From Lachnospiraceae bacterium (lineage in GTDB: Bacteria > Bacillota > Clostridia > Lachnospirales > Lachnospiraceae): DNA of 64,000 bases. This document shows, in pieces, positions 6,470 to 31,088 of this stretch. The stretch is taken from positions 62,001 to 126,000 of the forward strand of contig JAGBEO010000033.1 of NCBI GenBank assembly GCA_017936885.1. The letters are read 5' to 3'. A program made the translations under genes and the position numbers. The notes beneath the pieces were generated by a model. The model was not told the origin of the DNA, did not search any database, and saw only the letters and a list, made by a program, of their open reading frames with translations. Numbering within the stretch: the first letter of the stretch is position 1; each line of letters begins with the position of its first letter.

Positions 6470-6757
6470 TATATCAAAACCTGTGAGAAAGAGTAGTAGG
6501 AACAGGCAGACTGTCACAGAGAGCCGCAGATGGTGGGAAGCGGTACAGAGGCTGTTGTGAATGGACTTTCGAGGCTGACCTGAAATCATAATTGTATGAC
6601 AGTAGGAGTCGGCGGGAACCGCACCCGTTACCCAGGCGGCATATATGTTCTGTATATGTAATGAGGTGGACGTGATCATAGATCCGTCAAGTTGAGTGGT
6701 ACCGCGATAATACATTAGTTTATTACCGTCTCAAGCATTGGCTTGGGGCGGTTTTTA
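6470..6757 (+). promoter_or_regulatory. T-box riboswitch, tryptophan-type (UGG specifier)
   Basis: Hallmarks in order: the Stem I element GAGTAGTAGG, the AGAGAG GA-motif, and a distal loop ending GGTGGGAAGCGG. The specifier loop reads GAATGGACTTTCGAG, which places UGG (6562-6564) as the specifier codon, meaning Trp. The conserved T-box TGAGTGGTACCGCG is at 6693-6706. The terminator hairpin ACCGTCTCAAGC/GCTTGGGGCGGT plus a T run is at 6725-6757. Uncharged tRNA-Trp should stabilise the antiterminator and switch on the transporter genes. The specifier reading agrees with the downstream TrpXYZ-type importer. The acceptor-binding UGGU (6697-6700) would pair with discriminator A, or by wobble with G. 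Confidence 0.93.
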
Positions 6758-28965: not shown

Positions 28966-28994
28966 AAAGGACATGCTTTATGCGTGTCCTTTTT
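28966..28994 (+). terminator. recN terminator
   Basis: AAAGGACATGC and GCGTGTCCTTT pair (one G-T pair) around a short loop and run into a T tract. It lies between recN and spoIVB, so the upstream ATG at 28980 inside this hairpin is an unlikely start for spoIVB. Confidence 0.88.
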
Positions 28995-29069
28995 TGGAAC
29001 ATAAGGATGACTCGCATGGCGTGTCCTGAGTTGTTCTATATTCTGCGGAAAGATGAGGGATGTGATAAA

Positions 29070-30422
29070 TTGAACAGATTAGTTTATATGACAAAACAAC
29101 AAGAGAGAAGATATCGCAGTTTTCTCTATATTATATTAGCGGCAGCAGTCATTGCGCTTACCTTTACAGTTTACTATATTTATTGGGATAAAATTCCTTC
29201 TACTATTAAAATACGTGCAGGCGTGGAGCAGGAGCTTGATTTCAAAGTGCCGGTGTCAGGGGAAATCTACCGGGTGAAGGAGGATGCGGCGGCACAGGTA
29301 TCCTCAGTCACGGAGACTGTCAGGGCACCGGAAGCAGAGCAGGTGGCGGAAAGCATTTCTGATTCCGTGGAAAGCATCCATGTAGATTTTGCACATACGG
29401 TGAAGGTGAAAGCCAATGAGATTGATACTTATCAGATGGATTTGAAACTGTTTGGTATTCTTCCTTATAAAAATGTAGATATTCAGGTTATTCAGGATAA
29501 AATGCTGATACCTTCGGGAATTCCGATCGGTATTTACGTGAAGACCAGCGGGGTGTTGGTGGTAGGAATCGGAGAGTTTGAAAACAGAGAGGGGGATCAG
29601 GTATCACCGGCAAAATATGTTTTGCAGAAAGGCGACTATATTTTGCAGGTAGATGGAGAGGAGATCGAGAATAAAAAGCATTTTATTCAGTTGGTGGAAG
29701 AATCTGATGGGAATGATATGGTGCTGACCATTAAAAGGAACAATGAAATTACAGAGGTAATGATAGAAGCGGATCAAAACCAGAATGAGGAGTGGAAACT
29801 GGGAATCTGGATACGTGATAATGCGCAGGGAATCGGTACCATGACGTATGAAGATACGGATCATACTTTCGGAGCTTTAGGGCACGGCATCAATGACGTG
29901 GATACTTCCCTGCTGATGAATCTGGAGGAAGGGACGCTTTACAAGACGGAAATCGTAGGTATTACCAGAGGTGCCAATGGCTCTCCGGGAGAATTGACGG
30001 GTTATATTGAGTATGACAGTGATAATATCATCGGAGAGATTACAGAGAATACCACGGAGGGAATTTTCGGTATATGCGATGAAGAACTTGTTAAGGCAGC
30101 CTGTTATGAACCGATTCCTATCGCATTGAAGCAGGAGATTGAACTGGGGCCGGCACAGATTATCTGTTCCGTAACCGGAGAACCGGAATTCTATGATGTG
30201 GAGATCGTGGAGGTCAATCTGGAGCAGGAGAATATTAACCGCGGGATCGTCATACAGGTGGTGGATGAGAAACTTTTAACGCTGACAGGAGGTATTATTC
30301 AGGGGATGAGCGGCAGTCCGATTATTCAGAATGGAAAAATGGTAGGTGCGGTCACCCATGTACTGGTACAGGATTCTACCAGAGGATACGGTATTTTTAT
30401 TGAGGAGATGCTGACCCATTAG
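29070..30422 (+). CDS. spoIVB: SpoIVB signalling serine peptidase
   Basis: 450-residue S55 peptidase. One N-terminal membrane segment (FLYIILAAAVIALTFTVYYI), then a PDZ domain around residues 150-235 (GIYVKTSGVLVVGIGEFE, KGDYILQVDGEEI), then the protease domain with His272 in GHGINDVDTS and Ser in GMSGSPI at 412-418. In B. subtilis it is made in the forespore and triggers pro-sigma-K processing across the intermembrane space. TTG 29070 follows GAGGGA at good distance; ATG 29088 is an alternative; the ATG at 28980 lies in the recN terminator. Catalytic residues look intact. spo0A follows, as in other Clostridia. Confidence 0.93.
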   Translation: MNRLVYMTKQQERRYRSFLYIILAAAVIALTFTVYYIYWDKIPSTIKIRAGVEQELDFKVPVSGEIYRVKEDAAAQVSSVTETVRAPEAEQVAESISDSVESIHVDFAHTVKVKANEIDTYQMDLKLFGILPYKNVDIQVIQDKMLIPSGIPIGIYVKTSGVLVVGIGEFENREGDQVSPAKYVLQKGDYILQVDGEEIENKKHFIQLVEESDGNDMVLTIKRNNEITEVMIEADQNQNEEWKLGIWIRDNAQGIGTMTYEDTDHTFGALGHGINDVDTSLLMNLEEGTLYKTEIVGITRGANGSPGELTGYIEYDSDNIIGEITENTTEGIFGICDEELVKAACYEPIPIALKQEIELGPAQIICSVTGEPEFYDVEIVEVNLEQENINRGIVIQVVDEKLLTLTGGIIQGMSGSPIIQNGKMVGAVTHVLVQDSTRGYGIFIEEMLTH

Positions 30423-30501
30423 TATGAAAACCACAGAGAACTTAAGGTAAAGCAGATCGATGTTTTGGGCGATGCTTAAAAGTTCCACGGGTTGTTTTCT
30501 T

Positions 30502-30510
30502 TGTTATAAT
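30502..30510 (+). promoter_or_regulatory. extended -10 promoter before the spo0A remnant
   Basis: TGTTATAAT is a perfect extended -10 (TGnTATAAT), 63 bases before the spo0A start; the -35 region (GTTCCA at 17 bases) is poor, as tolerated by extended -10 promoters. So the locus may still be transcribed. No clear 0A box was identified. Confidence 0.55.
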
Positions 30511-30573
30511 AGGAAAAGATAAACCCAGAGTTTAGAATAAATTGTAAGGGGAATTTTATAACGGAGGAAGACT

Positions 30574-30831
30574 ATGGAAACATTAAATGTGACAGCATCA
30601 AGAGATCAAGAACAGTTTTACCGGATTTTGGATAATCTGATCAGTACCAATAAGGAATTTCAGATTATGATTACTGTTCCGTCCGGCAACAAAGAGGGAG
30701 ATATGCAGGAAATGGAAGTGATACAAGTACCCGTAGCACATGATCTGGAGAAAGATGTGACAGATATGATTCATGAAATTGGTGTTCCGGCACATATTAA
30801 AGGGTATCAATATTTAGAGAGGCTATTATGA
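30574..30831 (+). pseudogene. spo0A: spo0A 5' remnant: receiver core deleted and frame broken
   Basis: 85 codons behind a strong ribosome site (ACGGAGGAAGACT). The first ~30 residues resemble the start of a Spo0A receiver, but the acidic pair expected near residues 9-11 now reads SRD, and the phospho-acceptor Asp and conserved Lys region are missing: only about 30 residues separate the receiver start from the linker. From residue ~65 the Spo0A hallmark [18 protein letters not shown] appears. It then reads ERLL and stops at TGA 30829-30831. Inserting one A (TTTAAGAGAG for TTTAGAGAG at about 30815) restores [16 protein letters not shown], the normal Spo0A sequence. So two lesions are present: an in-frame loss of about 80 receiver residues and a one-base deletion. 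A sequencing error could explain only the second. Confidence 0.87.
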
Positions 30832-31088
30832 TGTCGGTAGAGGATGTAGAGATGCTTGGTTCTATTACGAAAGTGTTGTATCCGACCATAGCCAAGAAAT
30901 ATCAGACCACACCAAGCCGGGTAGAACGTGCTATCCGTCATGCCATTGAGGTGGCATGGTCCAGAGGCAGAATGGAAACTTTGGATGCACTTTTCGGTTA
31001 CACAATCAATACCGGAAAAGGAAAACCAACCAATTCCGAGTTTATTGCGCTGATCGCAGATAAAATACGTTTGCAATATCGTCGTTAA
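30828..31088 (+). CDS. spo0A: free Spo0A DNA-binding domain ORF
   Basis: 86 residues that match the Spo0A C-terminal effector domain without a break: [17 protein letters not shown], the recognition-helix region [25 protein letters not shown] and [17 protein letters not shown]. It overlaps the upstream remnant by ATGA (30828-30831), and GAGAGG (30817-30822) lies five bases before ATG 30828 and eight before ATG 30831, so independent or coupled translation is possible. In B. subtilis, removing the receiver makes Spo0A constitutively active, so a free domain could bind 0A boxes without phosphorylation. Alternatively it is simply the 3' part of a pseudogene; its strong conservation argues that any decay is recent. 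Confidence 0.85.

Follow-up and report, generated by a model that had tools for sequence, protein, structure and literature searches.

The window, i.e. the whole stretch of 64,000 nt that was analysed, originates from the Lachnospiraceae bacterium GCA_017936885.1 (contig JAGBEO010000033.1, 62,001-126,000, forward strand), whose genome of 3.57 Mb is assembled into 36 contigs and is 93.6% complete. Directly after spoIVB, in the canonical place of spo0A, it carries two open reading frames, which together represent a split spo0A gene without the receiver core (Table 1). The original prediction had placed spo0A here, had described ORF1 as devoid of the phospho-acceptor region, and had given the limits of both ORFs, their ATGA overlap (TGA of ORF1 at 30829-30831, ATG of ORF2 at 30828-30830) and the GAGAGG site in front of ORF2; inspection of the sequence confirmed all these details.

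Table 1. Parts of the spo0A locus in the window
Feature	Position	Strand	Evidence or remark
spoIVB (SpoIVB peptidase S55)	28980..30422	+	upstream neighbour of the split spo0A
spo0A promoter region	30470..30573	+	sequence; comparison with genus relatives
ORF1, 85 aa, 5' part of the split receiver-less spo0A	30574..30831	+	remnant aligned with 14 relatives
Codons of the conserved 38-residue N-terminal remnant (METLNV...EFQIMITVPSG)	30574..30687	+	dN/dS 0.035 among relatives
Frame break relative to intact relatives, and resulting stop	30814..30831	+	relatives' frame stays open there
GAGAGG, possible ribosome-binding site ahead of the ORF2 ATG	30817..30822	+	sequence
ORF2, 86 aa, 3' part of the split gene	30828..31088	+	Spo0A_C positions 25-104

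ORF1 comprises a receiver remnant (residues 1-38), from which the phospho-acceptor and the later parts of the receiver are missing, a variable linker (39-56), the first 24 residues of the DNA-binding domain and an out-of-frame tail. The claim that the gene is broken by a single base is supported by the comparison with one continuous relative, to which the split gene is 86% and 98% identical in two frames, i.e. beyond chance. The Spo0A_C domain is present in the window in two pieces only: residues 62-82 of ORF1 correspond to its first 21 positions (Pfam: 21.9 bits, below the cut-off of 25) and ORF2 corresponds to positions 25-104 of 104 (117.6 bits), as compared with positions 1-104 matched by intact relatives. 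With the spore_0_A profile (TIGR02875, NCBIfam cut-off 200) the scores are 40.5 for ORF1 and 144.3 for ORF2. The latter had been regarded as an intact effector domain, retained in a free form, a view that the split gene does not bear out: ORF2 is devoid of Pfam positions 1-24, and its start corresponds to residue 86 in the intact relative L093, inside helix B (helix A and helix B span residues 58-69 and 76-90 in the AlphaFold model of L093). It therefore possesses an intact recognition helix, but neither helix A nor most of helix B. The GAGAGG site lies within codons of a stretch that is conserved in intact relatives (LREAIMM).

A search of the rest of this 93.6% complete genome revealed no full-length spo0A, and its sole other Spo0A_C gene is a separate one of 136 aa. 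The gene adjoins spoIVB in the window and lies apart from it in many other members of the clade (among the receiver-less loci L064-L165), yet spoIVB was found in 35/35 receiver-less genomes searched. The only Rfam match above the gathering score in the window is a T-box leader (RF00230) at 6474-6736.

Receiver-less Spo0A in other Lachnospiraceae

The loss of the receiver core, originally attributed to this strain, was found upon comparison with relatives in every intact member of the clade that was read. Within the same genus, the best Spo0A_C match falls into an open frame of 175-208 aa in 34/36 genomes, and the remaining two, with a completeness of 86 and 68, yielded the second, short paralog alone; none of the 23 genus copies read (of the 34) possesses a receiver. 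For comparison, a match was present in 20 of 24 genomes of other families, and in these 20 the canonical spo0A frame measures 262-310 aa. In the family sample, Spo0A_C was identified in 271 of 396 genomes; among the matches listed, all 27 genomes with frames shorter than 240 aa were taken, including two of the own genus, and none of these has a receiver (0/25, again among the matches listed, for the 25 genomes from 20 further genera). The N-terminal remnant was seen in 20 genera including the own one, and G290, from a 21st genus, has a remnant of another kind. When GTDB r220 contigs were scanned with the remnant alone, 324 of the 329 pattern matches proved to be confirmed loci. In each of the 80 loci that were kept and read, the remnant is followed by the DNA-binding domain (L142 reaching the end of its contig), and 0/80 show the receiver motif; the sets of species behind the genus, family-sample and 80-locus counts overlap. 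Judging from their titles, the 80 are mostly uncultured Lachnospiraceae, with some Acetatifactor and few isolates, and many are from rabbit or deer gut by name. Because the receiver motif misses two full-length copies (L031, 285 aa, and L062, 300 aa), the receiver-less assignments are based on short frames and on the sequences read, and not on the motif alone. The three intact receiver-less members tested, L093 (207.9), L141 (205.7) and G290 (224.6), score above the spore_0_A cut-off of 200 in spite of the missing receiver.

The observation that started this analysis is real, but it consists of two separate halves: a Spo0A whose lack of a receiver is ancient and shared, and a frame break that is private to this genome and may or may not be genuine. 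Both lesions had been ascribed to this strain; the loss of the receiver is old and shared by at least 20 genera, and only the frame break was seen in this genome alone. The accompanying argument was that a single sequencing error cannot explain both lesions; one such error could explain the break, which is the only local one.

The remnant (for example MEQLN...KDNERV..IL.DL...DKEFQIMITVPSG) can be aligned by eye with the N-terminus of full-length relatives (MEHLNVAIADDNERILDLLEEIINMDKELNVVG...). Compared with these, it has lost the first of the two paired acidic residues, and the receiver is absent from the region of the second strand through to its end. These 38 residues would correspond to the start of the receiver, i.e. 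predicted helix 1 with its flanking residues. G290 reads ...NMELYFMVKPYDPEQMRNRLKNLK..., which looks like the start of a receiver fused to its last strand and helix (a KPYD-type end); this apparent seam suggests how the receiver was lost, and we infer that the remnant form and the G290 form both go back to one deletion. In the AlphaFold model of L093 most of the DNA-binding domain is confidently predicted, and the N-terminal helix (residues 9-24) has low confidence (pLDDT of the block 53-69). Over 34 close pairs among the 80 named genes, which are not independent of each other, the dN/dS ratio amounts to 0.383 for the linker, but only to 0.035 for the remnant and 0.003 for the DNA-binding domain, and 80/80 carry one of three near-identical recognition-helix strings. 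The first 38 codons exhibit a pS of 0.21, as against 0.33-0.36 in the rest of the gene, which hints at an additional constraint at the DNA or RNA level.

For phylogenetic and gene-content comparisons a panel of 75 genomes was used: 45 receiver-less (20 from the genus, 24 others and G290), 20 with full-length Spo0A and 10 without Spo0A (of 125 seen). SpoIVA, rather than SpoIVB, was chosen for the host tree because spoIVB adjoins spo0A in part of the clade only. In this tree of 52 rows, the 32 receiver-less genomes fall on one side of a single branch (support 99/97), which recurs in 98% of 200 bootstrap trees; outside the tree are G234 and G020, which have no SpoIVA match, and 12 of the panel's 20 genus genomes. 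G290 is located within the receiver-less side together with G215 and G432 (92/77) and may branch near the base of the clade, albeit with weak support (89/43 for the rest). In the tree of the DNA-binding domain, which comprises few columns (117), the receiver-less rows require two changes, not one, and the second paralogs form one group (SH-aLRT 80).

The receiver-less form resembles canonical Spo0A (TIGR02875; Pfam Spo0A_C PF08769; structures 1FC3 and 1LQ1) in its DNA-binding domain, its recognition helix and the geometry of the spoIIG promoter, and differs from it by the absence of the receiver core with the phospho-acceptor and by its length (~170-200 aa instead of ~260-280 aa). Laboratory variants of Spo0A with an altered receiver or none, reportedly described by Ireton and co-workers in 1993, are active without phosphorylation; the same activity is putative here, and those variants were engineered, whereas the form found in the clade is natural and old. 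Truncated spo0A homologues, reduced to the effector domain as in our case, have also been noted in phages and were suggested to be free of host signals, according to the accessible part of the report (PMC10294663, mBio 2023). Unlike the phage-borne genes described there, the gene of the clade is chromosomal, occupies the place of canonical spo0A, fits one branch of the host-gene tree, and begins with a conserved remnant for which viral contigs contained no confirmed match. A phage origin was considered and rejected: 25 pattern matches in viral contigs contained 0 confirmed relatives of the remnant, the locus is the canonical chromosomal one, and two phage records (H1 and H2) carry a full-length spo0A with a receiver. 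The records labelled Bacteriophage with a full-length spo0A are MT835504.1 (L084) and MT836727.1 (L085); L084 is probably bacterial DNA, because it also carries spoIVB.

The one-base frame break

Among the 96 ORFs of the relative G029 that are well matched in the window (shadow frames included; the comparison does not extend to ~34.5-37.3 and 40.1-44.6 kb, where good matches were lacking), spo0A alone falls into two frames. The frame is open in the 34 other copies from the genus and in all 80 named loci, and the break was seen in the genome of the window only. Relative to L093, codons 1-38 show 2 nonsynonymous and 7 synonymous codon differences, the linker shows 9 and 3, respectively, codons 57-80 show 0 and 10, and ORF2 shows 0 and 36; relative to L099, ORF2 exhibits 2 nonsynonymous and 34 synonymous differences, and relative to L105 no amino-acid change. 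Because these differences reveal no period of relaxed change, the break should be either a recent null mutation or an error of base calling, which we regard as about equally likely. A search of viral contigs for a second strain in which the break could be checked gave no exact match, and the nearest named relative is not conspecific, since it is only ~81% identical.

One-base errors are common in draft genomes. That the break is an error of sequencing or assembly, and that the strain has the intact receiver-less spo0A of its relatives, is a possibility to which we give slightly less than even odds: no other copy is broken among the 34 from the genus and the 80 named loci, the 3' part shows no relaxation against L093, all five sporulation genes searched are open in this genome, and the loss of one base anywhere shortly 5' of the conserved ATGATG would generate the same stop and the same overlap. 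Such an error would, however, have struck an assembly that is otherwise clean here, none of the other compared ORFs being split, and by eye there is no long homopolymer at the site. Just as plausible, and likewise a little short of an even bet, is a real and recent break, i.e. a spontaneous spo0A null, either in an isolate or in a gut population that gains by not sporulating. The clean surroundings in the comparison with G029, the absence of a complete domain from either ORF and sporulation genes that have not decayed so far would all agree with it, but no second genome of the species was found among the named loci of GTDB r220 and the viral contigs, and the frequency of one-base errors in drafts speaks against it. 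If the base call is right, the strain is probably a recent asporogenous mutant, neither piece encoding a complete DNA-binding domain. Or perhaps the two ORFs could be coupled cistrons, with re-initiation at the ATGA giving rise to a free 86-aa DNA-binding fragment that is active alone? The overlap and the spacing of GAGAGG would be suitable, the recognition helix is intact, and the 86 codons are unchanged in amino acid relative to L093 and L105 (two changes relative to L099). We consider this reading very improbable, as the fragment is devoid of helix A and most of helix B, both GAGAGG and ATGATG fall into conserved codons of the intact gene, and the arrangement is present in no relative seen (34 genus copies, 80 loci); an active free effector is unlikely because ORF2 starts inside helix B. 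Programmed frameshifting was also considered and rejected, as no classic slippery run was recognized at the site by eye. The phosphorylation-independent Spo0A envisaged in the original prediction fits the continuous protein of ~170-200 aa of the clade, but not the 86-aa fragment.

Probable sporulation without a receiver

SpoIVA was detected in 43/45, the small acid-soluble spore protein family (SASP) in 45/45 and SpoIIGA in 44/45 receiver-less genomes of the panel, compared with 20/20 for each in the genomes with full-length Spo0A (SpoIIGA being partial in two) and with 1/10, 1/10 and 0/10, respectively, in the genomes without Spo0A. Among 50 panel genomes, a SpoIIE match was found in 34/35 receiver-less, 5/5 full-length and 1/10 Spo0A-less genomes, none of these matches reaching the curated cut-off, family controls included, which the B. 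subtilis protein does reach; the corresponding numbers for SpoIVB are 35/35, 5/5 and 1/10, the last one with an internal stop. The positive Spo0A-less genome is G093, whose SpoIIE match is strong; it has a partial SpoIVA, SASP, SpoIIE and a spoIVB with an internal stop, and its sporulation is apparently decaying. No match was found for SpoIVA in G234, for SpoIIE in G246, and for SpoIVA, SpoIIGA and the second paralog in G020, a genus member with a receiver-less spo0A.

Two of these families look different in the clade. SpoIIE is short, the match beginning at ~410-441 of 764 in frames of 388-495 aa (e.g. G000:C4:32366-33412), and in 4/5 controls with full-length Spo0A it begins at ~309-315. SASP is represented by exactly one match in 45/45 receiver-less genomes and by two or more in 19/20 full-length genomes. 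Because of the shortened SpoIIE and the single-copy SASP, the sporulation programme is altered and might serve another end.

In B. subtilis, the spoIIG promoter has a 0A box at the -35 position and an overlong spacer. The pattern NNGACA-N21-TATA[AC]T, picked after inspection of the sequences and followed by tests of all spacers of 14-26 with shuffles, occurs upstream of spoIIGA in 20/20 receiver-less genomes fetched, including that of the window (44 panel receiver-less genomes have spoIIGA). It is present in 15/18 full-length genomes fetched, with two more at N22, and in 0 of 30 shuffles at N21. The exact box TGTCRAA was found upstream of spoIIGA in 14/20 receiver-less and 18/18 full-length genomes (~2 expected); it is absent from that position in the genome of the window.

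A Spo0A-type receiver was identified in 5/5 controls with full-length Spo0A, at E 5e-46 or stronger (identity of 57-69% in four; the fifth was the source of the query), and nowhere in the 25 receiver-less genomes searched, where the best match had E 1e-18 or weaker (9e-12 in G062). Relocation of the receiver to another gene was rejected: the best matches, for 24 genomes among the matches listed, are 32-39% identical and mostly CheY-sized, as in the controls. A Spo0E-like phosphatase, which would be expected to vanish together with the receiver, scored above the cut-off in 0/35 receiver-less, 3/20 full-length and 0/10 Spo0A-less genomes, which is compatible with that expectation but a weak test, because the protein is too rare in the full-length controls.

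A second, short Spo0A_C gene (frames of 125-184 aa) is present in 25/25 receiver-less genomes outside the genus and in 34/36 within it; the copies in G225, G439 and G290 diverge more strongly. Among full-length genomes, 10/20 have a single Spo0A_C gene and the others have extra copies, mostly divergent. The second proteins (L002, L181-L212) resemble the receiver-less Spo0A in having Spo0A_C and no receiver, but they have no N-terminal remnant, their recognition helix is changed (e.g. TTDQKVERAIRNAIEVSW), and they are encoded in glycan clusters; that of the window's genome remains below the spore_0_A cut-off (140.9 of 200). In the 32 loci compared (L212 of 33 was skipped), a glycosyltransferase group is nearby in 26, an epimerase in 17 and a ManC-type gene in 13, the names being based on three loci that were run against Pfam (family-2 glycosyltransferase, GDP-fucose-synthase-like epimerase, ManC). 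GDP-mannose/GDP-fucose and glycosyltransferase genes are thus neighbours in most of the loci compared, which comprise that of the window's genome (G000:C23:10447-10752, L002:1420-1830) and L181-L212. Spores and matrix, as the classic outputs of Spo0A, may, as we infer, be divided between the two genes, the second paralog being that in the surface-glycan clusters.

We find it fairly likely that one ancient loss of the receiver has resulted in a phosphorylation-independent Spo0A that still drives sporulation in this Lachnospiraceae lineage. Spo0A would have lost most of its receiver once, long ago, leaving in the relatives a continuous protein of ~170-200 aa with a 38-residue N-terminus, a fast-changing linker and a complete, near-invariant DNA-binding domain. 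This protein would be the sporulation activator of these bacteria, would not need aspartate phosphorylation, would bind the 0A-type site at -35 of the spoIIG promoter like ordinary Spo0A, and may be controlled by its amount or by docking of a partner on the conserved N-terminus; in the window's genome the gene would be further split by the one-base break. The clade probably starts sporulation in some other way than by a phosphate signal. A bolder formulation, which we hold with only slightly better than even confidence, is that Lachnospiraceae species numbering some hundreds, from at least 20 genera, start sporulation with an unphosphorylatable Spo0A, one old in-frame loss of the receiver having cut the histidine kinases off, with control shifted to the expression level or to an N-terminus partner and outputs perhaps shared with the glycan-cluster paralog.

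Could the receiver-less clade instead have ceased to sporulate, its DNA-binding domain being kept for another job (stationary phase, surface glycans or metabolism) and its sporulation genes fading? The shortened SpoIIE and the reduction of SASP to one copy would agree with this, and the second stand-alone Spo0A_C in glycan clusters implies that such domains may serve elsewhere. Moreover, in the accessible part of one study, 24 Lachnospirales MAGs of one host set, Acetatifactor among them, were all predicted to be non-sporulating, the same predictor calling some Herbinix MAGs spore-formers (PMC12536801). We nevertheless regard the reading as unlikely: the five sporulation genes are kept in nearly all members tested, from many genera, and are gone in 9/10 Spo0A-less relatives and partly degraded in the tenth (G093), the spacing of the spoIIG promoter is exact in 20/20, and the recognition helix is unchanged. 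Even less probable, in our opinion, is control of the receiver-less Spo0A by phosphorylation in trans, with either the second Spo0A_C protein or a distinct receiver protein pairing with it. The near-universal second gene would provide a candidate partner, but its product is receiver-less too, differs in its recognition helix and is encoded in glycan clusters, and a search of 25 genomes revealed no Spo0A-type receiver elsewhere.

According to the accessible part of PMC11210211, all endospore formers act via Spo0A, which is activated by phosphorylation of its receiver. If phosphorylation-independent sporulation is correct for the clade, bacteria with sporulation genes and a Spo0A-type spoIIG promoter, and without a receiver, would contradict the receiver-phosphorylation half of this rule, and would open to experiment the long-standing question of what phosphate input achieves beyond the reach of a bare DNA-binding domain that is controlled otherwise. 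The literature searched, with subscription papers and preprints lying outside its scope, yielded no description of a receiver-less Spo0A in a bacterial clade, and the accessible parts of PMC6136694 and PMC11536998 mention no such bacterial Spo0A. In the accessible text of PMC8340488, spo0A was scored by tblastn at 30% identity, its presence and the sporulation score agreed for 98.9% of genomes, and former spore-formers were said to make up 18% of Lachnospiraceae, the word 'receiver' being absent from that text; gene-presence scores of this kind (spo0A present = spore-former) would count the receiver-less genes as ordinary spo0A.

Upstream of the split gene, an element at ~30470-30486 precedes a TATAAT at 30505-30510 and is common to some genus relatives only. 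The shared element, GATG..T.A...TTCCA before a TATAAT-like -10, was recognized in L093, L099, L105, L102, L088 and L090, and is a candidate regulator site for the receiver-less spo0A.
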